Assembly (NCBI GenBank): GCA_032622095.1
Contig: CP136063.1
Location: forward strand, 146,313,379-146,377,378
Origin: Siphonodentalium dalli
Taxonomy: Eukaryota > Mollusca > Scaphopoda > Gadilida > Siphonodentaliidae
Direction: 5' to 3'
DNA: 64,000 nt
Shown here: piece by piece, positions 2,749 through 58,350 of the stretch
Layout: each line of letters starts with the position of its first letter
Position numbering within the stretch: position 1 is the first letter of the stretch
Position numbers and translations under genes: made by a program
Notes under the pieces: model-generated
What the model was told of the DNA's origin: nothing
Seen by the model: the letters and a program-made list of their open reading frames with translations, nothing else
The model's database searches: none

Positions 2749-3135
2749 AAAAAATATTTATTAAAAATAAAATATATAATAATTTTTTTTTTTTTGGTTA
2801 AATTGAGCAATAAGTTAAATCTAAAAAAATAATATTTCTTCAGATTTATGTCCATAGCCCCACCCACATTTGACCCAGTGACCTCATTTGAACAAATCTG
2901 AACCACAGTCACCCAAGGTACCCTCATACCAAATTAGAAACCCATTCGGCCCGACAACTTCAGAAAAGAAGTCGTTTTAAGAATTACTATGTGGAAAAAT
3001 AGTTATGGTCCTGACATCAAAACTATTTGACTTGGTGACCTCATTTGAACAAATCTGAATAAGAGTCACCTAGGGAACATCCACACCAAATATAAACCCA
3101 ATCGGTCTGATGGTTTCAGAGGAGAAGATGTTTAA

Positions 3136-3552
3136 CCCTTTGAGTGCCACGGGCTGATCTCATCGGCCCTAATTTACGTTCTGTAAAATCGGCCCTAAAA
3201 AAAAATAAAAAATAAAAAAAAACATTTTTTTAGTATGCTTAGCATGCTGCTATAGGGCATACTATAACTCAAAACAATCACCAAGTATTCATAGTAATAA
3301 TTTTGATGCCCATGAAAAACGTAAGATTCCCTGGCCCTAAACCTACAAAATAAGCCTGTTAAAGAATATAAGAAACAATTATTAAAATTGTAAAAAAAAT
3401 TGTAAAAAATTATAACAAATGATGAAAAATTGTTAGGCCAATGCATTCTCTTATATATGCGAGGCGACCTATGGTCGACTCGCATATATAAGAGAATGCA
3501 TTGGCACAGGGTATATGGGTCGATACAAAAACCGGACCTGGCACTCAAAGGG
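3136..3552. mobile_element. piggyBac-like MITE with TTAA duplications
   Basis: Flanked by TTAA at 3132-3135 and 3553-3556. Ends are CCCTTTGAGTGCCA and its reverse complement (14 bp perfect), the CCCTTT start being typical of piggyBac-type termini. It has no transposase. Next to the left end ATCGGCCCTAA occurs twice around TTTACGTTC. A near-perfect 69-nt palindrome sits at 3437-3505. The related R1 copy at 29940-29970 reads straight through the insertion point (GATGTTTAAAGAATTG), so this is a real insertion with TTAA target choice. Confidence 0.85.
3437..3505. repeat. 69-nt near-perfect palindrome inside the MITE
   Basis: Arms GCCAATGCATTCTCTTATAT... and its complement pair over 27 bp, and the centre CGACC-TAT-GGTCG continues the pairing with one mismatch. 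It would form one long hairpin in RNA or a cruciform in DNA. Confidence 0.9.
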
Positions 3553-3655
3553 TTAAAGAATTGTTGACGGACGGATGGTACGACAGATGGACGGACGGAC
3601 GAGGAGTGATGACTATAGCTCCACCGGAGACGTCATCTCAGGTGAGCTAAAAAGT

Positions 3656-4079
3656 TGACGGACGGACGACGGACGAGGAGTTGGCTAGTGTATTTGGTGA
3701 TGCTAGACTGCTGTGCAGGGTAGCATAACTAAATTTACCCTCTGGGGACCTCATTCTGCAAATGCCAGACACACTAAATTCAGGTTGAGAACAATAATTT
3801 GTTTTTATTTTATTTTAATAACACACACTGGCATGAGTGCTAGCTAAGCATTAGTTCACACCTGTCAGCCTGATAAACATCTCAATTGATGACTGTGTGT
3901 GTATTTATATTAACTCTCTCTCTGTCTGTAGCTAATACAATTGACTTAATCTGCTGGTGGGAAAGATCCTGTGAGTTAGGAAATGAGATAGGGTGGAATG
4001 CTGTTGGTTGATGGCAGGGTGGGGTTCTGGGTCATGTGGGGGGAGGGTGATAATTTTTTTTGTATGTTAAATTGATCAA
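3656..4079. other. No gene seen
   Basis: Non-coding sequence after an R1 tail, with TGTG- and CTCT-rich stretches near 3890-3930. I see no motif with support. Confidence 0.5.
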
Positions 4080-4905
4080 GGAGTTCCTGAATTTTTTATT
4101 TTTTTTGTTGGAATTATGGCCCTGGCTCCACCCCTATTTGACCCAGTGACCCCATTTGAACAAATCTGAACCCCATTCATTCAATGACCCCCCATACCAA
4201 ATATAAACTAAATCGGCATAATGGTTCTAGACAAGAAGTCGTTATAAGAATTACCAAGGAGGAATATAGTTATGGCCCTGGTTTCGCAACTATTTGACAC
4301 AGTGACCTCATTTGAACAAATCTGAATGACAGTCACCTAGGGAACATCCACACCAAATATGATCAAAATGCAAAAATGTAATTTTTTTGTTTTTAGAGTT
4401 ATGTCCCTATTTGACCCAGTGACCCAATTTGAACAAATCTGATTCCCAGTCACCCAAGGTCCCTCAGTACCAAATATAAGCTAAATCGGTCCAATATTTT
4501 TTTAGAAGAAGTCATTGTAAGAATTACTATGAGTTATGGCCCTGGTTTCTCAACTAATTGACCGGGTGACCTCATTTGAACAAATCTGAACACCAGTCAC
4601 CCAAGGACCCTTCATACCAAATATTAGCTAAATCGGCACAATGGTTATGGACAAGAATTTGTTGTAAGAATTACTATGGAGGAAGAGAGTTATGGCCCTG
4701 GTTTCGCAACTATTTGACCCAGTGACCTCATTTGAACAAATCTGAATGAGAGTCACCTAGGGAACATCCACACCCAATATGAACCAATTCGGTATGATGG
4801 TTTCAGAGGGGAAGATGTTTTTTTTTTAAGTTGACGGACGGACGGACGGACGAGGAGTGATGACAATAGCTCCACCGGAGACTTCGTCTCAGGTGAGCTA
4901 AAAAG
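4080..4905 (+). repeat. R1 interspersed repeat, three internal units and closing hairpin
   Basis: Three units each carry TTGACC(C)AGTGACC and GAACAAATCTGAA, at about 4136, 4305 and 4720, with further degenerate units between. A GACGGACGGACGG tail follows and then a stem-loop. The repeat stops at GAGCTAAAAAG and a retrotransposon fragment begins at once. Confidence 0.75.
4867..4900 (+). other. Terminal hairpin of R1
   Basis: TAGCTCCACCGGAGAC pairs with GTCTCAGGTGAGCTA around TTC with one bulged base. The same hairpin ends the R1 copies near 3615-3650 and 15524-15557, always followed by AAAA. It probably marks the 3' end of the mobile unit. Confidence 0.7.
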
Positions 4906-7002
4906 TAAGGAACAGTTAAATCCTATAGAATTATCTGAATTAGAAAATTATATGTCCTATCTATATTCAAAACATGAGGATAATCCTGCACATCTTTTGA
5001 ACTTAGAAGATGACTTAATTGATTCAAATCCCATTGACTTCCCTTTTAAATGTAAAGAATTAAAATCAGGCAAACAACCTGGCATAGACCTCATTCACAA
5101 TGAATTTTTAAAACATGGTTGCAATGTGCTTCTTCCGTCAATTGTTCAATCGTATACTATCAGAGAGTAGTTTTCCAGACTTATGGAACCTTGCTACTGT
5201 TTCACTTTTACACAAAAAGGGGGATATGAATGATTGTAACTACTATAGATGCTTGAGTCTAACTAGTAGTCTAGGTAAATTATTTTCTTCATTACTCCAA
5301 AAAAGACTATATGAACACTTAAATAATAATGGCTTGATGAATAGATTCCAGGCAGGATTTCGTCCTGATCACCGAACTTCAGACCATCTATTTACAATGA
5401 AAACACTTATAAATAAGTATGCATATAAAGATAAGAAACCACTATTTGCTTGTTTTGTAGATTTCTCAAAAGCTTTTGATTCTGTTTGGCGACCAGGCAT
5501 GTTTGAAAAATTATTACGATTAGGAATTGGTGGGAAATTTTACAAACTAATCAAGGAGATGTATAAAGAACCAAAGTATATGGTAAAAAAAGATAATTTC
5601 ATAACAGGACAACATACTTCATGGAGAGGAGTTAGACAGGGTGACAGTCTCAGTCCCATGCTATTCAATATTTACACAAATGATATCATTAATATCTTTG
5701 ACTCTAGTTAAGTAAGACGCACCCTGTGAATCTTGGTACTACAGAGACAAATTGTCTGCTATATGCTGATGATCTTATTTTATTATCGGAAGATGAATCA
5801 GGGCTTCATTCTTCAATCCTGTCTGGATTCTTTAGTTGACTATTGTAACCAATGGAAATTAAGGATCAATCTCGATAAAACAAAAGTCATGGTTTTTAGC
5901 CGAACCAGGAGGAATACCTCAAAGATGAATTTCCATTTAAACACTGATAACATTGAAATAGTAGACAGTTACACATATTTGGGATCACAATTGTTCTTCA
6001 ATGGGAACCTGAAACATGCTTCAAATTGTATGGCAAACAAGGCTACTAAAGCACTATACTCTTTGAGGATGAAAATGCTTGATTTCAATTTCACAAATCG
6101 CGAATTGGACATGAAATTATTTGATACTTTAATTTGACCTATATTATTATATGGATCAGAAATTTGGATTGCTGATTTTTCATTACAAGCATTTCTCAGC
6201 GACCAGTCACCCTTTGAAAAAGTTCACACAAGATACTGTAAATATGTGCTGGGTGTTCTCAGAAAGGCATCAAATTTAGGAAGCAGACATGAACTTGGGA
6301 GACAACCATTAGCAAATTTTATGTTAAAATTAGCCCTGTAGTACATGATTAGATTAGAAAAACTACCAGAAGACCATTTATTAAAAGAAGTATACACATT
6401 AGATAAAGAATTATCTAATCAGGGATATTCGTCCTGGTATTCGGCTATTAAATCTGCCATGATTAAATTTAATATTGAACTGAATTGTATGACGGAAGAC
6501 AATTTAGATGACCTGATCTCAAGTTCTTATGAAAAATCAATTGAATCTTGTTTATCTAGCTGAAAAAGTACCAGACAGCAAATTACATTTATATGGCGAG
6601 TTAAAAATCAATTTTAAGTGCCAAGATTACTTAAATTTTGGAATATCAAAATCAAATACAAGATATTTAACAGCACTTCGGATAAGTGCTCATTCTCTAG
6701 CAATTGAGAAGGATAGACAAAAACGACCCAAACCAGATATTAAAGATCGCATTTGTAAAGAATATAAGATAGTAGAAAACGAAGAACATTTCTTTTTATT
6801 TTGTAAGAAAAATGCTAAACACAGAACAAATCTCATAGATAAAATAGGTATAGAATTTGATTTTCAGGGCTTAGTCCCAAATACAGATACATCATTGCAA
6901 CGTTTGCAAAGTATTCTTTGTCCAGAATCACCTAGTGATACAAGACATACATGTAGTTTTATCGAACAATCACTGAACATCAGGTCATCTAATAATTCCT
7001 AA
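4906..7002 (+). pseudogene. Non-LTR reverse transcriptase with C-terminal Cys/His motif, multiply broken
   Basis: RT motifs appear in order: SGKQPGIDLIHNEFLK, SLLHKKGDMNDCNYYR, FQAGFRPDHRTSDHLF, ACFVDFSKAFDSVW (first catalytic Asp), GVRQGDSLSPMLFN, then YADD at 5762-5773 in another frame (LLYADDLILLSEDE) and WKLRINLDKTKVMVF. Downstream are TYLGSQL, PILLYGSEIW and a C-terminal C-x-H-C-like segment (RICKEYKIVENEEHFFLFC). The reading frame shifts near 5140, between 5700 and 5750 and near 5815, and there are stops at 6136-6138 and about 6340, so it is dead. The layout suggests the jockey/CR1/I group of elements, but the clade is not certain from sight. Confidence 0.8.
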
Positions 7003-8688: not shown

Positions 8689-9875
8689 CTCTTTCAACCC
8701 GGCAGCCCTCTAAAGCGGGCACGACGTAATTTACGTTCACCCCGGCAGCCCGCTTTAGCGGGCAGAGCGCAATTGTCGGGAATAATACAATATTTCCAGA
8801 GATTACAAATGATTTTATTGGTTAGCGACTTGTATATCTTTTCGGTATCAATACTAATTTATTGGTGCGAACGAATACCTAACATGTACGTCATTAAGAG
8901 GATTTCCGGGCCTAAATATAGACAGCACCTGTATGACGTCACGATTACTATTTTGGGGCTTCCTAAAAATCGATGACGCAATACTGCCGACAGGTGTGGT
9001 GTTTTGAGTCACATTTCGATTTTGGTTTATTGTTTATCACAAAAACATACCGATAACATTATTAGTATTACGTTTATGAAATAAAGAAGATAATGTTGAC
9101 CTTTCTAACAATGTTTTATTTGTGGTATCCGTCTAATGTCTCTTATTTTCGACGCAACATCGACGGACAACGCACAACGACGCGACTTTAATAATAATAG
9201 CTGCACGTGCATATTATAAACACCACATTGATATTCATAATCATTTTGGGAATCCGATCAGGACATTTGGGAGTTGTTTTATTTGGAATGTTACTCATAA
9301 TTCTTCAACTGACTGACAAGTAACTCCCTGTGGGTCTAAAATTGCTAAATGTGGGAGTATATATGTCTGTTTCGGTCAAATTGTGTTTTGGGCATACTAG
9401 CTAGGTTAGTACTGGTCTGCTCTTGCCTTTGATAAAGCAATTATGTTCAATGAACCAAGTGGTAAACATTTGAAACCACGCAGAGGGTCATCACAACCAC
9501 GTTTATACACCACACTTGCAAAGAATGACACATATATATGTATGTATTTGTGGGGAAAACATTGATATGCGAAGTTGATATCCCAGATACAGGTGATACA
9601 TGCGACTATAGCATATATTGGGGTTCAATGTCCCTTCTCGGTTCACACCTGCATACACCTGATATATTATTTAGATGTGACGCCCCAACTGATTTATAAC
9701 ACAAAGTGAAGGTCACTTGTAAAATTAACAATCATAAAACACGCAGTTTGCCATACCCGACGTCACTCAAAAGGTAGTATTGCAGCAATACACCAGGGAC
9801 ACATAATTTTACTTAGGCAAGCTGATAATCCAGGGTTCTGGGACATCTATGTCTGTATATTCAGGGATGAAAGAG
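8689..9875. mobile_element. TTAA-flanked non-autonomous element, piggyBac-like
   Basis: TTAA at 8685-8688 and 9876-9879. Ends are CTCTTTCAACCC and, in reverse complement, CTCTTTCATCCC (11/12). Next to the left end CCCGGCAGCCC occurs twice around TAATTTACGTTC (8727-8738), and CCCGCTTTAGCGGG is palindromic. No transposase frame is visible in the 1,187 bp. The same TAATTTACGTTC sits at 3170-3181 in the other TTAA MITE at a similar distance from its end. Confidence 0.7.
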
Positions 9876-9879
9876 TTAA

Positions 9880-10800
9880 GTAGATAAACATCTTAGCAAT
9901 GTGAGACACAACATATGTTTTTTTTTATAATTGTTATTTTTTTTAGTATGTTTTGTGTTAGCTGCATATTAAAAATTCATGGGATCATTTAGATGGGAGA
10001 AAAGAGTTAATATTTCCCATTCAAAAACCAATCAATACCTGAACAACTATACTAATGAGAGATGTATAGACCTGGATATAAAATGATCGATAATGATTGG
10101 ATATAAAATGTTTTAATGCAGAATTTTCAGATAGCTAGAGGTAGGATATGAGATTGGTCAGATTGAAAATATTAGATTCATTACATTGGATAGCATACTG
10201 TATGACTATTGAATGGGTGGGTTAATTTGCTTCTAAGCTGATCATTGGAAAGATATAATGTATGTAAACAGCGTAAATATAATTAAAGTTATGGTTAATA
10301 TTATCAAAACCATTCAATCGATACCAAAATCTATACAGGTGAAGAATGTGTCATCATTAACATGGATGCAATTATTTATATAGTGATCATGTGAAAAATA
10401 TTTAGTTATCACATTGTGTCAACAGGATTGGTGGGGGATGTTAATATTTTTAAGCAAATAAACCAAATGACCCTCACTATGCAGGTTAGGGGTGTGTTAT
10501 CATAAACTATGCCAAGAACTATAATCATAATCAATAGAAATATTTGAGTTATAAAATCGGATAGAATGGGGTTAATCTTACCCAAACTAATGAACTGATA
10601 AACACAAAAAGTCTATAAAAAGCATGTCAATCTCTATTGTCATGAACCTGTTTCAACAAAGGGGTTAACTTAATATTGCACAGAAAACAACTGGATCAGA
10701 GAGTCATCAATCACAGTTTTGACAGATTTTATCAACAGACTCTGCTAGCCATGCTATCTATATCTATCTAGTGTCCAGCTAAACATAACTCAATGCCAAC
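9880..10800. other. AT-rich intron sequence with a degenerate interspersed repeat
   Basis: CGATACCAAAATCTATACAGG at about 10320, followed by GTGTCATCAT, matches the unit repeated at 17640-18000. No gene seen. Confidence 0.5.
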
Positions 10801-10869
10801 AAGCAGTCGCAGACGGCGGTATCCCCCGCCGAAATGTGCACTCGGGGAAGTGCATTCTCAATAATGTTT

Positions 10870-11395
10870 GTGTTCTCCGCCAAAATGTGCAGTTGGGGGA
10901 AGTGCATTCTCAACAAGAGGTGGGATTTTGTCAAAAAGCCTGGCTTGCGAACTCATTTTAGGACTGACATTTGTGGAAATTAGCCATGTGACGTTGTCCA
11001 TTTGCACTAAAAATAATCAACAAAGTCCAATAACTCTGCTGAAAATATCCGGCCGGACCTGGTTTGCGAACTCATTCTAGATACTGGTCATGTGAACTCA
11101 TATTCCAAAAATCTTTGAAATCCGTTGACATTTGTGGAAATGAGCCCTGTGTCGTCCATTTGCACACAAAAAAATAAACAAAGTCCAATATGTTGCCAAT
11201 AACTCTGCTGAAAATATCCGGCCGGACCTGGTTTGCGAACTCGTTCTAGATACTGGTCATGTGAACTCATATTCCAAAAATCTTTGAAATCCGTTGACAT
11301 TTGTGGAAATGAGCCCTGTGACGTCGTCTATTTGCTATTTGGTAAATTTGACAAAAAGAATAAACAAAATCCAATAACCCCGGTAAAAATAACGA
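10870..11395 (+). repeat. Tandem repeat, period ~169 bp, about 2.7 copies
   Basis: CCGGCCGGACCTGGTTTGCG occurs at 11049 and 11218 (169 bp apart), each followed by TACTGGTCATGTGAACTCAT and a TTTGTGGAAATGAGCC block. A truncated earlier unit starts near 10943. The short frames here are translations of the repeat. Confidence 0.75.
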
Positions 11396-11399
11396 GTGA

Positions 11400-11457
11400 T
11401 GTCGCGGAAGGATGGAACGAGAGGCGCTTGCGCCTCGAGTTCTATCTGTCCGCGACA
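11400..11457. other. 58-nt imperfect hairpin
   Basis: TGTCGCGGA (11400) pairs with TCCGCGACA (ending 11457), and GAGGCGC-TT-GCGCCTC forms the tip. Most of the middle also pairs. It is GC-rich against AT-rich surroundings. It could be a microRNA-like fold, a transposon end structure or chance. Confidence 0.6.
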
Positions 11458-11558
11458 GCACGAGTGCCATATCGACAAACCCATTTACACATCGTGTCGT
11501 TCTGTGTTTATTACACGCTTCGCGTCCTAGAATCCGTGCATTAAATATACATGATTAG

Positions 11559-11853
11559 AATGTTTATTTAGGCTCACACAGGGCGTGTTTGTCATGTGTG
11601 ATGATTCTTTTATTTAAATAGTTCCAGTTTCATGGTTGAGGCGAACGTCATGTACGTCATTTTATGTCAACGAGATGTGTATGGAACGTACATTCAATAC
11701 GGATTTGTGAATATGGAACAGCAATAACACTGTACTTCTAGGAACAAGCGTGTAATAAAATAATAGACTCTCAGTGTGATGTGAGAAGTTCTCTTTCTGA
11801 GCTTACAGTGCAGACATTAATTACATTATCAGTTACTTTAATTTTAAATGGCC
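11559..11853. other. No gene seen; ends in an R3-type repeat
   Basis: AT-rich. The last bases (AAATGGCCATAAC) look like the left part of an R3 repeat copy whose right part resumes at 17482 beyond the hAT-like element. Confidence 0.45.
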
Positions 11854-12240
11854 ATAACCAAGGCCTGATCTAGGTTTTATTTGGGGACACCTCCCGATGA
11901 CCGAAGGTCATCGCCGACTGCCGAAGGTAGGAGCCGAGGGGAGTATGAGAGGGGTGGCCCCTCTCATTGGGGCGGTCCGGGGAATTTTTAGAAATTTCAA
12001 TGCTCTGAGAGTGATCTTGGGCATATCTGAAGGATGATTTTCATTTTTTAAAGAGAATTTTATACTTTCAGTAGCTATTAATATGACCAGAGTCACTTAA
12101 GCCAGAAAACAAAATTCATTTAATACATGAACTCAATATAAACTGATTGTAACATTTTAAAAGTCAAAATCGTAAAATAGATCTGATCAGTTGTGGGCAT
12201 ATTATCACCAAAAACATTGAGTCATTGATTGAAGTGTGGT

Positions 12241-14368
12241 TTACTGACATTCAATCCTTCTGTTTTTCTCAGTAAGCCATATCTCCACCATTGGGTCAAT
12301 GTCTTGGTCACTGAAACTTGACGGACCATTCAAACAAAATCGCAGCATTCGGTCCAAGTTTGTTTGATTCAAACTGGACCTCAATGGGCTACACAACAGT
12401 TTCATTGCAGAAAAGGCCCTTTCAACATTCGATGTGGACGACGGAATTAGAAGCAACATTTCAAATAACCGCATAGTCAATATTGTCACGTCCGTTGCTT
12501 CGCATTTGTTTGAATACAATAGATCCATCAACAGGATGGTTGTCGATGTACGCTGCTACATCAGCCTGTTTCAGTTTGTTTTGACGTACCAGCACTGATG
12601 TCTCGTGTCGCAAATCCTGCTGACTCCTCTTGGTACTCTCGTTAAAATCACTAAGAAATGATTCTATATCCTGTGTGGCGGATGTTTTGTCGATGACTGA
12701 TGGTGATGTGATCGTCCCACTATCATCCGTGTCTATCTGGAGGTTGCCATAATATTGTGTTAAGGCTGTGATGGAAGTACCACGCTCTTCGTCGGACATC
12801 CCGTTTGCCGGAGAGAATGCATTGAAAAGTGGTGCCACGTCACTGTCAGCAGACATTGCCTCATCCAACTCCACAATCAGCGAATCCAAGAATGGAACTC
12901 CCGTCTCTTTGATAAACTTCCGGATCCCATCGGCCGGGTCATCGTTAAACTGTGTGCTTCCCCTCGTGTGTCTAGCTAGGTCCATCCTCATCTTAGCCGA
13001 CTCATAGAATTCCGTCGACATTGCGAAGTGTTTCCCAGAGAATATTATCCTTCAGATGAACGATGGAGTTTTTCAGCTTCTGGAAGCGGGCTGGGACGGC
13101 AGTGTAGTTTAGACATTTCTTCTGCAGAAACATTGAAAACGTGTTGATTGGCACAAGAACATCGGCTACCAATAGCAACAAAAGTGATAGCTTTAAAAGT
13201 TGATCGCGACATCCTTTGATTTCCAGGTCGCCCCTAGATTCAAACAACGAGTCGAGGGTATCGATGACGATATCCCAACGCGAAATCAATCTGGAACAAG
13301 CAGCGCCATGACTCAGCCATCTAGTAGTGGACGCTTTAAGGATTTTTAGTGGTTTTTGCCCTTCAATCTCCTGCGCATTCATCAGAAGCGATGACCTCAC
13401 AGATGAGAACTTGAATAGTTTCCATACAGTGAGAAGAACTTCATCGAGTTGTTTTAATTCTGGGTACTCCTTGATTAAATGAACAAACACTAGCGCTAGG
13501 CGATGGTTTTTGCAGCTGATGTAAATAGCATGTGGTGACAGATGATGAATTCGTTTCTGCAATCCAGTCTTATTGCCGCTCATCGTATTTGTCCCATCGA
13601 AACCTGTGAATAATATATTAGTAATGGGAATGGACTTCTTTCGTAGAGAGTCTACAATTTCTGAAAGAAGAGCCTCGGCACCTTTCTCTCCGACAACTTT
13701 TACAATGTCAACGTATTCTTCTTTGACATCATGTGTGAGTGTGTCCAGATAACGGACAAATATAATCAATTGGGCTCTCCCAGCCTCGTCGGTGCTCTCG
13801 TCTGCGAGGAGAGTGAATCCTGAACAACAGGTGATACCGTCAAGAGTGTCTTTCTCGATGCAATAGTTAATTACATCCAGGTAGCCTTCAACGGATGTAG
13901 AGGACAGATATGTCGCGTTGGATGGCATTGTTCTAACATGTCTCTCTAGGTCAGATTCACAAAGATCGTTTGCGATAAACTGAATGAGATCTTCAAAGTT
14001 AAACTTCACGGCCCATTTCTTACGCGTCATAAAGTAAGTTGTCTTGATTAGCTTCGCAATAACACGTTTTTTCCACTCGCCGTCCTCTTGCCTCCTTGTT
14101 GCATCGGACCTTTGTAGGTGTGTAACAATGGTACCTCGTTGTCGTATCGTGGCCTGCATCTCCGTTTGGTTGGCCGTTGATCGCTGGTGTTTGGTGCTGG
14201 CTAGATGGTGTCCAACACCCTGGTTGGGTGACCATCTTCTTTAACAGCCTTTTTGCGCCACCATTGATCCCCTCCTATGCTGAAAGCCTCGCAAGTTTTG
14301 CACATCCACCCACTCTGGACCGGATCAAAGTAGAGCCATTTATACAGCACCATCCAGTGGGCGTGGGT
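12241..14368 (-). pseudogene. hAT-like transposase, exon 3: Zn finger, RNase H-like core, dimerisation domain
   Basis: Starts after acceptor TTTCTTTCAG in phase 0. It opens with WLYFDPVQSGWMCKTC, then HP and later HLASTKHQ, a TTF/BED-like C-C-H-H finger. The core has TLLADESTDEA (first acidic residue), FTGFDGTNTMSG and ISCKNHRLAL. The end has SSTSNVERAFSAM, whose Glu belongs to the hAT catalytic set in the C-terminal dimerisation domain. The frame is broken near 14205 (TAG at 14201-14203), near 13010 and near 12530, so no active protein is made. The layout is like hAT-derived genes such as KIAA1586/ZNF862-type proteins (recall). Confidence 0.82.
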
Positions 14369-14949
14369 CTGAAAGAAACGATGGGAATGCTTTAAGCCTT
14401 ATCGAATTAAAAAAAACAAATTTACAACCATGGCAGATGCAATGCATTTAATAATACTATTAGTACTTAGTACATTCATTGTACAAATTATTATATAGAA
14501 AATTACATTTTTAACAAGAGCATAGGGCCATTATTGATACTTTTGGAAAATATTCTAATTCAAAAATGTAAAAAACAAGACAGTCAAAGACTGTGGGGTC
14601 GCTCACCAGACAGCAAAGACTGATAAGATTGGGACTCTGGAGACCATTACAGTCAGAACTTTTTATAATCACTTTAAAAGAAGTAGATCTAAACAGGATA
14701 TGTGGCTAGAGAGGCTTCATGTCGATCGGTGAATATCTACCTTTAAATTACCAATGGAACACTACTGATCACCCCCCCCCCCCCCTCCAGCCTAACATAT
14801 CCCCTCCTGACCGGGCTCCAGACTCCCAAGTCTTAGGTTGGAATTTCACAACCGACGTCTCAAACTTTCTCAATTGTTGGAAATTTCCGATCTCACAAGC
14901 ACCTTTTTATAAAACTATTTAGACATGTTTGAAGCCCAATTATCCATGG

Positions 14950-15562
14950 ACCCAAAACAAAAACCCAAAAAATTAAATAAAAGATCAAAATGCAAAAATG
15001 TAATTTTGTGTATTTAGAGTTATGTCCCTGGCTCTGCCCCTATTTGACCCAATGACCCAATTTGGAAAAAAATCTGAACTCCAATCACCCATTAGGTCCC
15101 TCCGTACCAAATATAGACTAATCCGGCCCAATCTTTCTTGAGAAGATGTCATTCTAAGAATTACTATGAGGAATAGAGTTATGGCCCTGATCTCTCAACT
15201 AAAAAACCTGGTGACCTCATTTGAACAAATCTGAACCCTAGTCATTGAAGAACCCTTCATACCAAATATAAGCTAAATCGGACCAATGGTTCTAGACAAG
15301 AAGTTGTTTTAAGAAATACTATGGAGGGAAAGAGTTATGGCCCTGGCTTCGCAACTATTTGACCCAGTGACCTCATTTGAACAAATCTGAATGGGAGTCA
15401 CCTAGGGAACATCCACACCAAATATGAACCCATTCCGTCCAATGGAATCAGAGGAGAAGATGTTCAAAGAATTGTTGACGGACGGATGGACGGACGGACG
15501 GATGGACGAGTAGTGATGATTCTATCTCCACCGGAGACTTCGTCTCAGGTGAGCTAAAAACC
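14950..15562 (+). repeat. R1 copy inside the hAT intron 2
   Basis: Carries GACCCAGTGACCTCATTTG, the GACGGACG tail and the GGAGACTTCGTCTC closing hairpin ending GGTGAGCTAAAA at ~15560. It lies between transposase exons 2 and 3, in the opposite orientation to the gene, so it was gained by this copy or rode inside the intron. Confidence 0.75.
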
Positions 15563-15716
15563 TGAGACAGGATATAAATTACTGTAACTCATTTGACCGA
15601 ACTCATATTCCAACTTGACCTCAGTCCTGTATTACATTATTGGTTCTTTTCAAGTTTATTTTTTTGGTAGTCAACATCATTTTATTTTTATTTTTTTAAA
15701 TAAAATATTGTCTTAC

Positions 15717-15839
15717 CTCCTTACCACGGCAACCATCAAGCTGAATGGGTACATATTCATTTGAACTTTCTGATTCGTCACCGCTGTCCTCCCTTGGGGG
15801 TGGGGATTCGCTTGATTGGTGTGTTGCATGCTGTGGTAT
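15717..15839 (-). CDS. hAT-like transposase gene, exon 2
   Basis: 123 bp (41 codons) with acceptor TTTGTAG and donor GAG|GTAAGACA, both in phase 0 with exons 1 and 3. It encodes an acidic, Ser-rich linker (ESPPPREDSGDESESSNEY). Earlier GTAAGG would put exon 3 out of frame, so the second donor is preferred. No domain. It belongs to a dead transposon. Confidence 0.65.
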
Positions 15840-16324
15840 CTACAAATATTATTAACATTATTATTTAATTATTCAGACTCCGAAAGAAACTTCAAAATCA
15901 AATTATTTATTCTCAATAGACATTATTTGAGAAACCAAAAAAAAACATTCAATAATAATTGGTTGGTTGTGAATATAGTTTGGAATTGAATAAAATTTAT
16001 TAATTTAATACACATGTGTAGCATTAATTGTATTGAATTTGTGAACACACATGAAAATAAATGTTATTGTGTTAGTCATGAAACTTGTCGGATGTTGAGA
16101 ATAAATTATTTTACCATGAGATTGACTTGTTGTAAGGTTTATATATATTTAAATCAACTATATAAATAAACTTCTAAATGTGTTGGCATTTCTAATAAAC
16201 TATATAATTATTATTATCGATTCATATGGATCATTGAGACATTTAAAAATGGGTGCTTTGTATTTTATTTATGTTTATATAATATTGTGATTTTGCTGAA
16301 TAAAATATCATCGCGTTGTCTTAC

Positions 16325-16744
16325 CTGCTCATCATGACGGCCACCAAGGGGTACATTTGTGTGAATTGAACTTTCATCACTGCTAGCAATGTCACTGACA
16401 GTGACATGGACACTTTGAGGTGTGGATTCACTACTGGCCGCAGTGGCAGTCGCACTAGCAAGACGACGCTTTTTCTCGGCTTGGGGTTGTATCTCATGTT
16501 CATCACCAGCAACGGAAGCAACTGCTTTATCACGATCACTTGTATCAGTGTGAATGTCACTAGTAGTACTACTACATGTACTAGGCTTGTTACTACTATC
16601 AGCAACAGAACCTCCAAAAAATGTTGTTATTTTTTTGTTTTGTGTTTCAGAAGTCTGAGGGTTAACTTTGGCATACTGTCTATCAGACTTATAAGTTGAG
16701 GATTTTTTATTGTGGCTCACACCTGTTGTTCTTGGACGTGGCAT
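16325..16744 (-). CDS. hAT-like transposase gene, exon 1
   Basis: 420 bp (140 codons) from ATG (MPRPRTTGVSHNKKS) to CAG|GTAAGA, phase 0. An in-frame ATG eight codons upstream (16768) is an alternative start. The product is low-complexity and Ser/Thr/Asp-rich with a basic KKRRL cluster that could be a nuclear signal. NKKITTFF resembles a PCNA-interacting (PIP) box with Asn in the usual Gln position. It lies ~740 bp inside the element's right end, leaving room for a promoter, which I cannot point to. Confidence 0.6.
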
Positions 16745-17481
16745 TGATACTATTATTACATTGTGCACATAATTGGGGAATAAACTTACTATTTTTCAAA
16801 AAATGGCGAGAATTCAACATTCCATTTTTATTTCCGGTATAAATCGACACGTGTAAAACTTTTTTACGGAAGAGAATCGATGCGAAAATATGTTTCTTGT
16901 CTTCAGTGCTTACGTCGCCAAAACCAATAGAGTTATTCCTCTTGATACAGTCTCCGTGAAATGCAAAGTTTACAAACCTTGTCGAGATTCGAGAATCATA
17001 GATTTATTGCAACATTATCTTATTTCGTTGAAATTAATGACAGACGCGCGACAATGCACTATCTAATAGTGTCATTAACTCTGACAAATGACATTTATAC
17101 GTCGGGAGAATAAACAGCGCATAACCGAAAATAAGTGTTCCTTATCCGATTCCATTTCCACTATTTTGTGTCGGAAATCGCGACAATCGTGACTTCTATT
17201 TTATACGGAATTACTTTCGTTTTAGCTTGTAATCGGAATTGCGTGATTTTCACGATTTAAGAACATTTCAACATCATCAGATCGTTATTAAAGTGGTATT
17301 TATCGTCAATTAAAAGTGAATTTTGTTGGTTTCCACTGATGAAAATATATAAGTAGAAAATGTATTTATTTATTATTTTTTTTTGCTTTTTTTTTTTTTG
17401 CTTTCAATTTGTTTGGGCGCCCAAACTCAATGTCCCCAAACCCGGTATACCGGAGTCGAAAATGGGCTGGGTCAGGCCCTG

Positions 17482-18165
17482 ATAACTCTGTTAAAATATA
17501 CTGGATCAAACTCAAATTCAAACCAGATCTGTATTTCAGGGTGAGGACCATATGTACCAAATTTAGTGCTGATCAGATGAAAAAATATTAAAGTCAACAC
17601 AGCTTGGATGAATTCTATTTAAAAACAAGAGCAGAAAGGGTTAACTAAACGATACCAAAAACCATACAGATGAAGAACGTGCTAAGAAAAACCTAGGTAA
17701 GAAATATGAGGCATATCAGAAGAAAATGGTTTGACTTAGATGCATCAGATAGCATTTGTGTGCAGGTTAATTATTTTCTAAACCGATCAACCAATCGATA
17801 CCAAAAACTATACAGGTGAGGTGTGTGTCATCATAAACCTACATATCAAATATGAACACATCGGACAAAAAATACTTTGGTTACAGCATCGGATACCTCA
17901 TGCCTGTGTGAGGATGCAAAGTGTTAATAATTTCTAAACTGTCAACCGATCGATACCAAAAACTATACAGGTGAGGAGTGTGTCATCATAAATATGCACA
18001 TAAAATTTGAACACGATCTGATAAAAAATATTCGAGTAATCGAATCGGATAGCAAGTGTCTACGGACAGACAGACGGACGGACGAACAACGGATGGTTGA
18101 TCCGGACGTCAGCATTATGTGTACCATACATGGTATGGATACACATAAAAATCCTATAAAGAGGG
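17482..18165 (+). repeat. R3 repeat remnant followed by ~150-bp tandem units
   Basis: Begins with ATAACTCTGTTAAAATA of family R3. GATACCAAAA plus CAGGTGA and GTGTGTCATCATAAA recurs near 17650, 17797 and 17951 (period ~150 bp). It ends with a GACAGACGGACGG tail near 18070. Confidence 0.65.
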
Positions 18166-18169
18166 AAAA

Positions 18170-18697
18170 AAGTCTTCTCGGTCCACCATAGCTTGGGATG
18201 ATGGTGTCCCATCACATTACTCTTCTATAATGGACTTTATGCCATGGGCGGGAATTATCTTACTTGTATGTCTTTGGATTAGGTCAAATGGAAGCCTTGC
18301 ATATATGAACATAGAAGGCAGCCTTTCCCAGGCATGATATATCAGAGATCCATCAAATGTCAAAGCAGAGAGATGTATAAGTAAACAAAGCCTTGTTTTC
18401 CAGAGGTTTGGCTTGTCACACTATCAGAAAATGCATGAAAACAATACATTAAATGATAGTATCATCACTATACCTTTTTCTATCATGGTAAATATTATAT
18501 AATTTTGAAGACAAATTAATCACGGACATGTCAGATGATTAATCACATTCAGGGGTTTACGTGAATGCCCGGGCTCTACATGTACATGTAGTATATCTTT
18601 GGAAATGAAAGTCCGTTATAGAAGAGCAACGGTCAGAACTTGGTCCAAAACATCATCATTCCAACCGATATCCCATGCTGCTGTGGACCGAGAAGAC
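18170..18697. mobile_element. MITE with ~30-bp terminal inverted repeats
   Basis: Left end AAGTCTTCTCGGTCCAC then AGCTTGGGAT; the right end is its near reverse complement (ATCCCATGC...GTGGACCGAGAAGACTT). A related, partly duplicated copy lies at 43544-44550 with the same right terminus. I could not define a target duplication, so the superfamily is open. No coding. Confidence 0.7.
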
Positions 18698-19306
18698 TTT
18701 GTATGGCACAATTGTTGTGTGAACAATACTGTTTACAGCTACATCACTCTGATCAAAGTCACAACTAGTCCAAAAAATAAGCAACACGTGATGTTGCGGC
18801 AACACCATTATGAAGTTCCCAATATTTAATGATATTTCCAATTCAAAATGCACTTTCAAGTTGATATTTTCCCTTAGATGTAATTATAAGTAATAATCTT
18901 GGTTTCTTAATGTAATTCCACAGTTTAGTCTCAAAAATCGTTTCGCAATTTATAAGTATGTGATTCAGTATGATGCCATTAAGCTGTGTAATTACATTAA
19001 GAAACCTCAATTAAATTGTGAATTTATAACCCCATAATAGTAGTTATAAGTTGTAAGAGATATGATATTGGTCATTTCAGGCTTGTTCAACATTAACTCA
19101 TCTGCTGAGAGAGGTAATCTTTGTTTATTTTGTTTCCATCTATCAAATATGGCAGCATTTTGTATTTTGAAAAAATGTTAAGGCCAAGAAAAAAAAGGCT
19201 CTCGGTCAATTTTTTTTTCAAATCAGTGAGGGAGGCAGGATTTTATTTTTATTTTTTACAATTATTTATGATGTGTTTCTGATGCAAAAGGAGATGATTT
19301 ATCTTA
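18698..19306. other. No gene seen
   Basis: AT-rich intron sequence. GTAATTACATTAAGAAACC and its approximate reverse occur near 18900-19000, suggesting a small degenerate inverted repeat. Confidence 0.4.
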
Positions 19307-19312
19307 CATTTA

Positions 19313-20336
19313 CAGACTTTCATTTTTGAGGCGCGCGATCGCTCTTGCGCACCATCGCACGCCTAAAATTTGAAAACCAGCGAGCGATCGATTGCGCACC
19401 TAGGCCAAATGCAGCGAGCGAACCTGATAACGCTATTTTCAGTGTCTACCCAGACTAAATGTCTATTGACACTGTGCTTCATCACGTAGTTCGACGATGT
19501 TGCATATTTTTGTGCCTCCTTAATTGCTTGGCCGCGGAATTTATTAGATTTGATGATTTCGTCAATGTGTCGCGCACAAGTTTTGCACCACACAGAAACA
19601 ACCATGTCATGACCCTTTGGGTCTTTTTCAGTCCTGTAGCTGATTAAAGAACCAACATTCTATTTTAAAAAGGTTTGGAGTTGGGTGTGGTGTCCCTTGC
19701 CCTTAACCGGTTCTCCGTCAACACTATCCGTTATTTAAAACGTGCGCACAAGTATAAAGTAAAATATCAAATGAATTCAGCAATTCTCCGAAACCAACAT
19801 TCTTTGTCGGCATACATCAAAAGGTGAGTCCCTCGTGCCACGATGATTGGCAGTTTAAGTTATTTGAGGTCACACGGTGTGACGTGTCGAATGCACTATC
19901 TGTCTGTGAATGATTCGAAGCTAAAAATACATTTCTATGTATGGCTTATGACGTCACATAAATTCCTGGAAAATCAAAGCGAGACCACGTGGCCGGGAGA
20001 TGTTGATATTTATTCTGTCTGTGTCAGCATGGAAAAATAGGAATCGGAGTATTAAATTGATTCCTTATTAATAATTATGAATTACAATAAATATAGGAGC
20101 ATGTACAATATAAAAACAGTGTGTAACATTCACTTGTGCTTATGGATAGTGGATTAAGCAGTGTTAAACCATCAAAGAGTTTCACTGGACATCGATCTTG
20201 AGTAAACTAATTCAATTTACGCAGCATTTATGAATGTATTTCCGCTGTTTATTTTATCTTGATAGAAACCGCGCGCCTGGCCAAAATCCAGCGAGCGAGA
20301 CTATGCGTGCCTACATTTTCTAAAAATGAAAGACTG
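19313..20336 (-). mobile_element. hAT-like deletion derivative with 6-bp target duplication
   Basis: Ends CAGACTTTCATTTTT and, inward from the right, CAGTCTTTCATTTTT (14/15). CATTTA lies immediately outside both ends (19307-19312 and 20337-20342). Subterminal GCGAGCGA and GCGCGC motifs occur on both sides. Only an N-terminal zinc-finger segment of a protein remains, so it is a non-autonomous derivative. Confidence 0.7.
19363..19639 (-). pseudogene. Zinc-finger exon fragment of a hAT-type transposase
   Basis: After an acceptor-like TTTAATCAG the frame reads YRTEKDPKGHDMVVSVWCKTCARHIDE in two parts and on to KYATSSNYVMKHSVNRHL. The C-x2-C followed by a spaced H-x3-4-H pattern is that of N-terminal fingers in hAT-derived proteins such as ZNF862-like genes (recall). 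The frame then runs into non-conserved sequence and stops at 19363. No catalytic core follows. Confidence 0.6.
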
Positions 20337-29489: not shown

Positions 29490-29990
29490 CCTTTAAGCAA
29501 GACCATTGCTAGGGCATGGCAAAATACGCACATGGCCCAACGATGGACAATTCAATTGGCAGGGAAACTCAAATTTGAATTTGACCTGTATTTTGAGCTA
29601 TTAATTCAAACACCAAATTTTATTCCATTCAGTTCAGACTTACTGAAGTTATCATCCGGTAATGAAAATTGAGTGCAAATTCCAACAATTAAAGTGTCAA
29701 TGACACTGTAGCTCAACTTGGAGCGGATAATTTCATCTGTTACAGTCAATGGACCAATTAGGAATGCGGAAAGATGAAATGTCTAAGTAATACATGTCAA
29801 CATGAAGAGATACATATAAAGTAAAATACAAGATGGTCGCAACTATTTGACCCAGTGACCTCATTTGAACAAATCTGAATGTGAGTCACCTAGGGAACAT
29901 CCACACCAAATATGAACCCATTCAGTTTTATGGTTCCGATGAAGAAGATGTTTAAAGAATTGTTGACGGACGGACGGACGAACATGACCT
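29490..29990 (+). repeat. R3 copy, R2 5' end and R1 3' end in succession
   Basis: GCATGGCAAAATACGC and ATCATCCGGTAATG (R3) are followed by GTGTCAATGACAC with TAGCTCAACTTGG (R2 5' end, ~29690) and then an R1 tail (GACCTCATTTGAACAAATC, GATGTTTAAAGAATTGTTG, GACGGACGG). The R1 part shows the empty state of the MITE site at 3136. Confidence 0.65.
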
Positions 29991-33579: not shown

Positions 33580-35641
33580 CTGAAAGTAACATGGTTGGTA
33601 AATATGTGTTTTCATAGCAGTTGATAAAATATAACAGAACAACGATTCCATGTAATACGTCACTCCATGTAATACGTCACTCCATATAACTCTAATTTAT
33701 GTTGTATATAATCCTTTGATAACTAAACACTCATTGATGAGTAGTTCACTTGCATAATGTAGTATACGGAATGGAGACTGGCGTCGTTTGCTAGTTTGAA
33801 TTTTTGTCACTGAAAAGTAGCTAACAATTTATCAACAAATTATTAATTTTGCCATTTTTGCAAGCTTGTACTTCTTCGTTTCCTGGTCAACAAATTATCA
33901 AATAGCATCATGTAGGGTCTTGTGAATCAATCAGATTCAAAATTGTTTGACCTATTCGATTCAATTAAAAATCGGCTGTCCTGATTTGAATTTTATCATC
34001 AGGTGCAATCCCATGGTTTCTACATATCACAATGTTTTTTTTGTTTCTCTTTTGCGTGAAGAGACTCAGCAAGACCAACAAACAAACACACATACAGACA
34101 ACAGTGTCACAAATTATCTATAAATAGACTGTACAATATGTAATAAGAACAGCGGGATTCCAGGAATTGAGGGGTCACAGGGGAATTAAAAACAAAATTA
34201 TTCGACAAACCTCTCCATCCTCCTTTTATACATAGTCCAGTGCATTGATGAGAAAAAAACGCCAAACCCGGAACTAATTGCAACAGAATTTTTTTTGCTG
34301 GAATAAGTACATAAACCCTCAATAAACAACATACTAAAAACCAAAAAAAAGGGAAAAAGGGAAATTGCTGAACTCAACATCAGCATCGATAAATATAATG
34401 ACAAATATGCATGTTTTAATAAATTTATGATGGCAAACAGCTTTGCAAATATGCATTCCAATGCACTGAAATGGATAGATCCTCGATGTCTAAAAAATTA
34501 TTTAATAATCTTGTGCAGGATTTTTATTGTTCTATATATATAGTAGATGTGGACTAGGGGCCGCCGATTACAAAATACCCTAGTCGTTTTATCACTATCT
34601 GTGTCGTTCCAAATTTTAGGAGCTAATTTTTTTTCTGATAGAAAACTGCATAATCATTCTTTTTGTGAATTTTTTAGCTCATACAATATTTTAGCTCATT
34701 AATATGTGCTGGATACAACATTTAGCTTACAAACAACAAAGTGAGAATGGACAGATCAATAACATAATGCATCCAGTTTGGAGGGGGGGCGACATATCCA
34801 TCATATTCTCCACAGATGGGAAAAATGTCATAAGAGTTAAGCGTGTAGTTTGTCAAGCAGAATGTTCACTTTTATTGAGCAAGATTTGTGGAAATAGTGA
34901 CTGCTTGATTGCTTTCTCATTATATAGGTTTAGATGTGTGAATGTGAACTCCTCGACCCTTTACCTTATGTCAAAGTACGACAGTATATAATATGGAGAC
35001 TGACGAGATTTACCAAATGGGGCAATATTGCGCTCGGAAAACACATTCTAAGTCACAGAACTCTAAACCAAACAACTTCATTTTTTTATTCAAGTAGTTT
35101 GCAAATAAAAAGATGAAACATGGCTGTCATTGTGTATAGGCGATATTTTGGTGACGTCACAAGTCACGTGTCAAAACATCAACAAACAAGCTGGTAGGCA
35201 GAAAGATGGAATCGCAGTGCAATTCTCATAGAAGATATGATCGCGTGTTTGATAATCTACAAATAAAACCAAAGTAAAACGGTAAAAACAAATCAGGAAA
35301 TAGTTGTTGTGTTATTGGATGTTCCAATAGACTCGAACATGTTCAGAATAAGATATGATTGGATAGCAAATATATGATACGCTGAAATATTGCGAGCAAC
35401 AGATATGTGAAATTATAACCAAATAATAAAAGATCGACCTTAATTGTTTTGAAAGTTTAAATTTTATCGCAAAATTGTGTGATAATTACAAACTTTTCCG
35501 ACTTCGTTTGCATACCTTGCAATTATGGAAACTTCCATCATATCCACTGTACATGTAGCACCGCTGTAAATTCTTATATATAGAGCTGGCTTTGTTTTTT
35601 TATTATTTTATTTTCGTTTGTAAATTTTGTCGCTACTATAT
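33580..35641. other. SMC5 intron, no gene seen
   Basis: AT-rich. CACTCCATGTAATACGT is duplicated near 33650-33680. No supported coding. Confidence 0.45.
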
Positions 35642-43543: not shown

Positions 43544-44181
43544 AATAACATCTATGTGTGATATCAGTTGGGATGATGCTGTTTTGGACAGAGTCCCCTC
43601 CCCCATTACTCTTCTATATCGGCCTTTATGCCCAGAATCATGGGCGAGAGTTATCTTGCTTATATGTCTTCGGACAAGGTCAATTCGATATGCTTTGCAT
43701 ATATAAACAAAGATGGCAACCTTTTACAAGCAACGATGATATCAAACATGCTTATATCAGAGGTCTGTTAAATGTCAAAGCAACAAGATCTATAAGTAAA
43801 CAAAGCCTTATTTTCCAAGGAATTTTGATTTGTCATGCTATCAGAAAATGCATGTAAACAATAATAACGTCTATGTGTGATATCAGTTGGGATGATGCTG
43901 TTTTGGACAGAGTCCCCTCCCCCATTACTCTTCTATATCGGCCTTTATGCCCAGAATCATGGGCGAGAGTTATCTTGCTTATATGTCTTCGGACAAGGTC
44001 AATTCGATATGCTTCGCATATATAAACAAAGATGGCAACCTTTTACAAGCAACGATGATATCAAACATGCTTATATCAGAGGTCTGTTAAATGTCAAAGC
44101 AACAAGATCTATAAGTAAACAAAGCCTTATTTTCCAAGGAATTTTGATTTGTCATGCTATCAGAAAATGCATGTAAACAAT
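43544..44181 (+). repeat. Recent 319-bp tandem duplication
   Basis: 43544-43862 and 43863-44181 are nearly identical; I saw only two differences (ACATCT/ACGTCT and CTTTGCAT/CTTCGCAT). The unit is the interior of the MITE family at 18170-18697. It makes two copies of a 99-codon frame that is not conserved in the older copy, so not a gene. Confidence 0.9.
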
Positions 44182-54875: not shown

Positions 54876-56700
54876 ATTTTCTAAGTTGAAAAGGGTTAAT
54901 ACCTCCGTAAAAAATAAATTTTCCGTCATCTATATACATGTTGCACATCTCCAACATGTGGGTAACAATTAGGGACTGACGAAGCTTCGAGATTCGATTC
55001 GATTTTGAATCTTACGTTCCGATTCGATTCGATTCGAAACTTAATCGAAAGGGGTCGTGTGATTCGGGATATTTCGAATCGTTGTATACAAGTCCTTTAT
55101 CGCCGGGAATAGACTGCATTATATATACAAATTACAAAACATTAATTATATCCCCAATACTTAAATTGAGGCTCCTTCCGCGACCAACTGGGAACTTCGT
55201 GGTCCAATGTGTACAGGTAAGTTGTCCAATAGCCCACTGCTCATATATATATTGGCCTCCCAGTCCCAGAGAGGGTTACTCGTGGCAGGTCGGTGGGTTA
55301 CTCGTGCGACCTGCTGGTATGTCTGTGGTGGTTCGCGTGATCATCACGGTTGTACCATAATCGCAGCGCACACGGGTTTCCTCCACCACATAAAACCAGC
55401 AATGTGGCGATTTTGCCCGGCCACAACTGCAGAAGCGAGTGAATTTCTTGTGAGACATATTTGTATATCGGTATTTGATATTCTTATACCAGAAAAACCT
55501 ATATTGTGTTACTCAGCTCAATCAAATAATATATTTTTTTTTAATTTTAAAACTTAACACGATATAAATATATTAAATAAACATTCTGGGCTCCAACATG
55601 TCGTGTCTAAATTCGATCAACATCTTTATACAGAATATGTTATCCGGGAAATGGAATATGGATGACCATTTAACTTTCATGACAACTCAATTGATCCGAT
55701 GGACAGGCCCAAGTTGGGATACTACACATTACATAGTTCCTGTAATCCCGTTTGCCAAGTCACGATGCGCAATTTTGATATCGCGCGTGCCTGCTGTGCG
55801 CGACAGGGTGAAGCGTACATGCGCAGAAGAGTTTCCATTTGCAACGACTCGAATCAGACTCCATTGACTCCAAAGTTCCAACCTGCTTACTTCCACGAAC
55901 TTCACGCATAGTGGCAGTGTCAAAAATATGAAATGATGGCGTGCCATTCTCATATATTAAACTGTTTAAACCCTGATTAAATATTGTTCATATCATGTCA
56001 TAGAAATTAAGTTTAATGAACCTCCTTCGTAATCTGAGTTATCTCACTGACGTTATAAAATCATTGGACAATTGCCCCCATTTTTGCACATACCCCTCAC
56101 TGATCGGTACCGCCAATCTACTAAAGTGTTTGAAAAAGATTTGATTCGAGATTCGATTCCGAATCATTATTGTGATTCGATTCGAGATTTGATTCGATGT
56201 TGAAATTGCCGATGCGTCGGTCCCTAGTAACAATACTCTGAATTTTCAAATATCTATGATGAAAACTGTAGGAGGAGTTGATTACACCACGAAGGTACCC
56301 TCATACAGAAAATTATTAAAAATGTTGAAATTTTCTAAGTCAAAAAGGGTTAATAACTCCGTCAAAAAATAATTTTTCCGTCATCTATATACATATTGCA
56401 CATCTTCAATATATGGGCAACAATATTCTGAAGTTACAAATCTCTAGGATGAAAACTGTAGGAGGAGTTGATTACACCATGAAGGTACCCTCATACAGCA
56501 AATTATAAAAAAATGTTGAAATTTTTAAGTCGATAATGGTTAATAACTCCGTTAAAAAATAATTTTTCCATCATCTATATACATGTTACACATCTTCAAT
56601 ATATTGGCAACAATATTCTGAAGTTTCAAATCTCTGGGATGAAATCTGTAGGAGGAGATGATTACACCATGAAGGTACTCAAAAGTGTGATGGACGGACG
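54876..56700 (+). repeat. Tandem ~190-bp repeats, first unit split by a transposon
   Basis: TTGAAATTTTCTAAGT with GGGTTAATA and CCGTCATCTATATACAT begins units at ~54876, ~56323 and ~56515. The first unit is interrupted at 54970-56226. The array ends with GACGGACGGACGG near 56710. Confidence 0.7.
54970..56226. mobile_element. hAT-like element with 8-bp duplication
   Basis: GTAACAAT flanks both sides (54962-54969 and 56227-56234). Ends TAGGGACTGACG and, inward from the right, TAGGGACCGACG. Subterminal regions are rich in GATTCGATTCG repeats on both sides. The 1,257-bp body has no recognisable transposase; short frames on the minus strand (55276-55953) are unassigned. Confidence 0.8.
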
Positions 56701-56709
56701 AACCGACGG

Positions 56710-57800
56710 ACGGACGGACGGACCCCGTTTCTATAGTCCCCGAAAAATAAATTTTTCGGGGGACAACAAGTGCTCCACACAGAGTATCCCCTGCCAATGT
56801 GGCTTTCTGGCGGGATGTTTATTAATGTTATGTGGCTTAAGTCGAAAGATGTCTTAATCTGGCCTGTAATAACTAAATAAAACATGCATAAAATACCAAA
56901 GAATTTTGAAATCGGTTCATATTTGTTTGAGTTATTAAGCCGGACAAACGAAAATTGCAAAAAATTGACCAACTAAGGTCGATTATCGAGACAAATTGAA
57001 AAAAAAAAAAATACCATTTGACATTCCTTTAAATGGATTCACTATAGCAAACCTCCATACCAAATTTCATTCAGATCTGACAGCCCATAGCTGGGATATC
57101 TGCATGAACAGACATAAAGAATTGATTTCCAGATAAGTAAAGAAGGGTAAAATGGAAAAACATTGTAAGCAGTCATGATGATGAACCTTCATACTAAATT
57201 TAATTTAGACCCTATAACCATTGCATGCAACAATGATTGTTACCATTGAAACTATTAGCTATACCTTTCTGGGAAATACTATGAGATTGCTAATTGATTT
57301 TCGGCAAAATTCTAGTTTCAACACTATTAAATTGAATACGAAAATAATGCCAAGACTACCTCAGCCTGAATATGTTATGATTATCTCTCTGATGTGTATT
57401 TACTGCCACCCCCAGACACATTTTAAGCTATTGCCTATGGACCTGCTTCAGCACACTAACAGCTGGCCATTATCCATAACTGGAAACCAGAGATTGGTGC
57501 ATCGGAACAATTGTATCACGCAAGTTTTAAACAGTGTATGATGTTCCACGATTGTAAATGATAATAGCCTTTCAACAAAGTCAGTTTTTAAGGTTTTTGT
57601 GATATTCCAGTTATATTCTTCTACTTGAAAAAAGGCAGCTCGGCCAGTGTCCCCCGAACCGGTAGCTTCATTTGGAGTGGAGGCTTTGTAGAAGTATACT
57701 ATATGGATACTTCACTTGTGCATTGTCTCATTATTGACATGCATACAAATAACCAAATCTTAAAAAAAACTCTTAAAGTCAAAATATAACCTCAAATTGG
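56710..57800. other. No gene seen
   Basis: Starts with a GACGGACGG tail and TTTCGGGGGACAA, a phrase also at 60420. The remainder is AT-rich. Confidence 0.4.
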
Positions 57801-58350
57801 CAAAAAATGAAGAAAATTACAAGAAAAATTGAATTTTCTAAGTCGAAAAGCCCATAACTCTGAGAAAAATCATCGGATCAAACGCAAATTAGAACTTGAC
57901 CTGTATTTTGAAATCAATGACTCACAAAAAAATGGAATTTTCACTTGAACAGTCCAAACTTGAGTTATCATCCGGAAACCAAAGAAAAAAAAAGAAGTAA
58001 AATTGAATTTTCTAAGTCGAAAAAAAGTCCATAACTCTAGGAAAAATCATCGGATCAAACTCAAATTAGAATTCAACCTGTAACTTGATATGACTGATCC
58101 ACATAAAAACGGAATTTGCAATTAAAGGATCCAAACTTGAGATAACATCCGGAAACCGAAAAAATGAGAAATTTTCTAAGTAAAACAAGTAGAAAAAGGG
58201 CCAAAACTCTCGCAAAAATGGGCGGAGCAAACCCATATTCGAACTTGACCTGTACATAGGGCTGATAAACTTACATACCAAATTTGGTTCAGATATGATC
58301 ACACAAACTGAAGTTATCACCCGGAAACCAGAAAATTACAAGATTATAAG
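57800..58350 (+). repeat. R3 tandem units, period ~150-190 bp
   Basis: CCATAACTCT...AAAAATCATCGGATCAAAC, TTGACCTGTA and ATCATCCGGAAACCAAAG recur about three times. This copy supplies the uninterrupted CATAACTCT context used to check the hAT-like insertion at 11859. Confidence 0.65.

Follow-up and report, generated by a model that had tools for sequence, protein, structure and literature searches.

A dead hAT-like transposon with a predicted three-exon, spliced gene and a 5-bp ATAAC duplication in the scaphopod Siphonodentalium dalli

Transposons of the hAT superfamily usually make 8-bp target site duplications (TSDs), according to passages of PMC12730594, which name the families with 5-bp and 6-bp duplications hAT5 and hAT6 and the 7-bp type hAT7. 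What kind of element, then, carries a hAT-like gene between two copies of a 5-bp repeat in the genome of Siphonodentalium dalli? We analysed a stretch of 64,000 nucleotides around this locus (the window) and consider the most probable answer, at about 0.82, to be a DNA transposon of the hAT superfamily, once autonomous but now dead, whose 5-bp TSD makes it hAT5-like in type. The whole transposon, to which no strand is assigned, extends over 5,623 bp (11859-17481), as delimited by its terminal inverted repeats (TIRs), its TSD and an empty-site alignment. The left TIR (11859-11873, plus strand) reads CAAGGCCTGATCTAG and the right TIR (17467-17481, minus strand), read inward, CAGGGCCTGACCCAG; the two are imperfect, with 12 of 15 positions identical. 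Farther in than the TIRs, both ends of the element also have the 10-mer TTTGGGGACA in common, so that the short TIRs expected of the hAT superfamily are present. A perfect ATAAC stands on either side, at 11854-11858 and 17482-17486 (5 bp each, strandless). Thus the TIRs and the 5-bp duplication by which a first-pass annotation had defined the element are indeed there. The 8-bp TSD of canonical hATs (Ac, Buster, Tip) is replaced by one of 5 bp only, and ATAAC, seen in this one copy of the element, corresponds to the 5-bp TSD in a hAT element that characterizes hAT5.

How much weight such ends can bear was gauged against shuffled sequence. When the entire window was scanned for pairs of CA..TG ends with TIRs matching at 12 or more of 15 positions and a 5-bp repeat, 2 pairs came out, as compared to 9 in total over 10 Markov shuffles. 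Ends and TSD alone are therefore not significant, being at chance level across the window. Another TIR/TSD pair, at 34342 and 39267, has A-rich ends; we rejected it, since it looks like chance. A second scan was confined to the stretches bordering the gene (9240-12240, 16745-20000), with TIRs matching at 9 or more of 10 positions and 60 shuffles as control. It yielded 35 TIR pairs, of which a single one had a 5-bp TSD, the same one that had the shared 10-mer, while the shuffles gave means of 30.4 TIR pairs, 0.03 with a 5-bp TSD and 0 with a 10-mer; the 10-mer criterion was added post hoc, once the 10-mer had been seen. The ends of the element are thus convincing because they bracket the gene.

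The first-pass annotation had also reconstructed an empty insertion site within a repeat, a proposal that is borne out on one side of the junction more fully than on the other. When the flanks were joined with one ATAAC, the resulting sequence gave alignments that span the junction with three repeat units, located near 57846, 58023 and 58195. To the right of the junction the BLAST matches cover 50, 32 and 114 nt, respectively, but to the left they cover only 13 nt per unit, 5 of which are the TSD itself (AAATGGCCATAAC as compared to AAAAGCCCATAAC, AAAAGTCCATAAC and AAAGGGCCAAAAC in the three units). At the junction position the units have a single ATAAC or, in one unit, AAAAC. All other matches of the joined flanks sit entirely on one side of the junction. 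For the motif GGCCATAACTCTG, at up to two mismatches, the window yields 15 occurrences where 1.1 are expected. Together, these alignments support insertion into such a local repeat, with a left-hand match that is short.

The empty site bears directly on the alternative that survives best, namely that this is a hAT of the ordinary kind, with an 8-bp TSD, and that its real ends or its duplication have been misread. The chance level of ends and TSD across the window would allow such a misreading, and 8 bp is the usual length among hATs in the passages of PMC12730594 and PMC3942097 that deal with it. However, if the ends are taken as CA..TG, the octamers that flank the element, GCCATAAC in front and ATAACTCT behind, do not repeat each other; ATAAC alone is repeated, and it is a single ATAAC (AAAAC in one unit) that the three repeat units have at the place of insertion. 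We consider a misread 8-bp element improbable.

The gene enclosed by these ends lies on the minus strand, where three exons are separated by two GT/AG introns, both of phase 0. Exon 1 (16325-16744) supplies 140 codons of a Ser/Thr-rich N-terminal part and exon 2 (15717-15839) a further 41 codons. Between them lies intron 1 (15840-16324; 485 bp, GT..AG), while intron 2 (14369-15716; 1,348 bp, GT..AG) leads to exon 3, which starts at 14368 and continues in four frame pieces down to 12241. Exons 1 and 2 consist of whole codons, and this phase is kept at the start of exon 3. The two donors, CAG/GTAAGA and GAG/GTAAGA, are the sole NAGGTAAGA (NAG/GTAAGA) sites on either strand of the element, and two of the 3 such sites on both strands of the whole window; the acceptors end in TTTGTAG and TTTCTTTCAG. 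With near-consensus donors, AG acceptors and two phase-0 junctions, the earlier description of two introns with GT/AG signals and matching phases was accurate, and the DNA predicts splicing of the transposase gene.

Might the putative introns instead be insertions, or decayed sequence, in a reading frame that was once continuous? The splice sites are predictions from the DNA sequence, and intron 2 does contain a separate repeat. In addition, exon 2 was open in 284 of 2000 shuffles, whereas exon 1 was open in none of 2000; because so many shuffles are open too, the openness of exon 2 is weak evidence by itself. Against this, the two near-consensus donors and the AG acceptors join the exons exactly in phase 0. 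Base composition and stop codons also argue for real introns: the three frames of intron 1 contain 11, 17 and 14 stops, and its G+C content is 23%, as compared to 43% in exon 1 and 50% in exon 2. Insertion into, or decay of, a continuous frame is therefore very improbable.

The repeat in intron 2 (14970-15572, plus strand) is about 0.6 kb long, and a portion of it aligns to 4355-4904 with 83% identity over 587 columns. Its relatives in the window lie at 2800-3135, 3552-3666, 4101-4904 and 29837-29983, along with a weak one at 56671-56720. This family (2800-4904, 14970-15572 and 29837-29983) is built of units of about 157 bp and features GGACGGAC runs, plus CTCAGGTGAGCTAAAAA near one end. On the minus strand of several of the units stands a GGCCATAACTCT-like motif, which is that of the repeat hit by the transposon.

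Exon 3 is where the transposase itself can be recognized, in pieces that are all on the minus strand. The first (14201-14368; 55 aa) holds the C-x2-C half of a zinc finger that we take to resemble the TTF type, and the second (13005-14240; 412 aa) opens with the H-x5-H half and continues into a DUF4371-like core with the motifs LADESTD, FDGTNTMSG, CKNH and TTRW. The third (12464-13051) encodes 196 aa. The last (12241-12555) carries the C-terminal hAT dimerization domain, with the motif NVERAFS, and a stop codon. LADESTD, FDGTNTMSG, CKNH and NVERAFS presumably mark the catalytic D, D and E of hAT transposases. Dimer_Tnp_hAT (PF05699) matched the last piece at E 4.4e-5, its 23.6 bits exceeding the Pfam cut-off of 21.4, so that the C-terminal dimerization domain of the hAT superfamily is present. 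The finger plus hAT core that had been proposed for this gene is supported within limits: PF05699 passes its cut-off, but a frame change cuts the finger in two, and the match of the 412-aa piece to DUF4371 (E 2.1e-5, 25 bits) falls below the cut-off of 32.1.

Other searches added little. For exons 1 and 2, the 196-aa piece and the 55-aa piece with the finger, Pfam gave no family above cut-off, and no Pfam model matched the first half of the finger. An NCBIfam scan of five pieces returned matches below cut-off only, and Rfam gave no match at gathering score. A PDB sequence search found no match for the 412-aa piece and two for the C-terminal piece, both with E above 1 and not useful. Single-sequence fold prediction of the 412-aa core piece reached a mean pLDDT of 36.8, which is too poor to use. 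Foldseek with this predicted core listed 806 matches at E up to 10, none of them at E 0.001 or below; the best 50 included no hAT entry, and a P element transposase ranked 22nd with E 0.41. We disregarded this list because of the low pLDDT of the fold.

The four pieces of exon 3 overlap at their ends and require at least three frame changes. Because exon 3 is spread over them in this way, this copy of the transposon is dead. The same frame changes, together with the TIRs and TSD that enclose the gene, make it scarcely credible that we are looking at a host gene that descends from a hAT transposase, even though its multi-exon structure and the catalytic-like motifs retained in its pieces would suit one. 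The reading of the first-pass annotation, a hAT-like transposon whose gene is spliced and whose TSD measures 5 bp, is supported by PF05699, by the splice signals and by the ends with their duplication. While live, such an element would have expressed, from its spliced gene, a transposase with an N-terminal tail, a zinc finger, an RNase H-like D-D-E core and a C-terminal dimerization region. By a putative cut-and-paste mechanism, this enzyme would have bound the ends, excised the element by catalysis at its core and joined it to the GGCCATAACTCTG motif of the local repeat with a 5-bp stagger, and repair of the resulting gaps would have produced the ATAAC duplication.

BLAST found no second copy of the element in the window; besides itself, only the repeats of the intron-2 type were matched. 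The TIR pattern, at up to two mismatches, has 9 occurrences in the window where 6.9 are expected, and therefore marks no further copy. Relatives of the proteins were sought in prokaryotic genome contigs and in viral contigs. In the former, 43 stretches matched the pattern of the 412-aa piece and 73 that of the C-terminal piece, and in the latter 6 matched that of the 412-aa piece and 3 that of the 196-aa piece; none of these was confirmed, and a degenerate motif had 0 matches in viral contigs. Since the collections searched were prokaryotic and viral, this absence of relatives says little.

The window also holds other features. A 1,024-bp element (19313-20336), which lies 1.8 kb beyond the right end of the transposon, has TIRs (CAGACTTTCATTTTT and CAGTCTTTCATTTTT) identical at 14 of 15 positions and an exact 6-bp duplication, CATTTA. 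The quality of these TIRs matters, because 3 of 10 shuffles also gave a 6-bp-TSD pair with TIRs matching at 12 or more of 15 positions. On its minus strand, 19366-19659 contains a WCKTC motif weakly like the finger of the transposon (BLASTP E 0.006 in a single comparison), and Pfam gave only Tox-PL-2, another family, at E 0.0035 and below cut-off. It is possibly a hAT6-like deletion derivative. Elsewhere, plus-strand matches to reverse transcriptase (PF00078) lie above cut-off at 450-1958 and 5112-5708 and below it at 5730-6134, and 450-1958 and 5112-6134 look like retrotransposon remnants. Two tandem open frames on the plus strand (43549-43854 and 43868-44173), 319 bp apart from start to start, are identical in 100 of 102 residues.

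Among known systems, a 5-bp TSD is also made by Transib transposons. The element is like them in this respect, but it has a hAT dimerization domain, and the pieces scanned gave no Pfam match to a Transib/RAG1-like transposase at E up to 1. Kapitonov and Jurka reportedly dealt with a hAT5 group of hAT transposons in 2007. With hAT5 the element shares both a hAT transposase domain and a 5-bp TSD; judged by TSD length alone, it may belong to the hAT5 lineage. Passages of PMC9004415 place hAT5 in some invertebrates and fish and call it unusual for its 5-bp TSDs. In the main text of PMC6004678, neither hAT5 nor 5-bp occurs. It had been noted for this locus that 5-bp duplications are less usual than those of 8 bp, which is correct as far as the passages of PMC9004415 and PMC12730594 go; the type is known there under the name of hAT5. 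BuT2, a hAT of the Tip group described in part of PMC3942097, is similar in having a spliced gene, short TIRs and a transposase with PF05699 and DUF4371 (below cut-off in our element). It differs in its 8-bp TSDs, its length of 2,775 bp and its five exons, as compared to 5 bp, 5,623 bp and three exons here. Therefore, hATs with 5-bp TSDs and hATs with spliced genes were both known already.

The origin of exon 2 is a separate matter. At the DNA level, the end of exon 1 and the adjoining first part of intron 1, taken together, aligned to exon 2 and the adjoining first part of intron 2 at a score of 86, with 102 identities in the 129 ungapped columns of a 163-column alignment. None of 500 shuffles reached this score (maximum 53), nor did any of 1000 window segments outside the element (maximum 56) or any of 1182 segments inside it (maximum 59), the latter control leaving out segments that overlap 15640-16760. 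The exons by themselves gave a narrow excess, the end of exon 1 scoring 49 against exon 2 where the control maximum was 48 in 1000. A local alignment of the two exons as protein lacked significance, its score being attained in 229 of 1000 shuffles, and the case for a duplication therefore rests on the DNA comparison. On this evidence, exon 2 and the start of intron 2 probably arose as a copy, since diverged, of the exon 1 end and the start of intron 1. We lean towards the view that an exon was gained within the transposon, in a 5-bp-TSD hAT lineage, when the exon 1 end, donor and intron start were duplicated to give an in-phase exon 2. The literature matches listed, from queries that addressed exon duplication itself only narrowly, included no hAT gene with a duplicated exon.

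As a well-bounded, spliced hAT with a 5-bp TSD, the element adds to a known kind; it is mostly ordinary and alone changes no picture. If intact relatives turned up, they would aid in placing the changes of target stagger (8, 7, 6 and 5 bp) on the hAT tree. The gene offers a likely case of exon birth via local duplication in a transposase gene and, if this is true, a transposon evolving its own splicing architecture.
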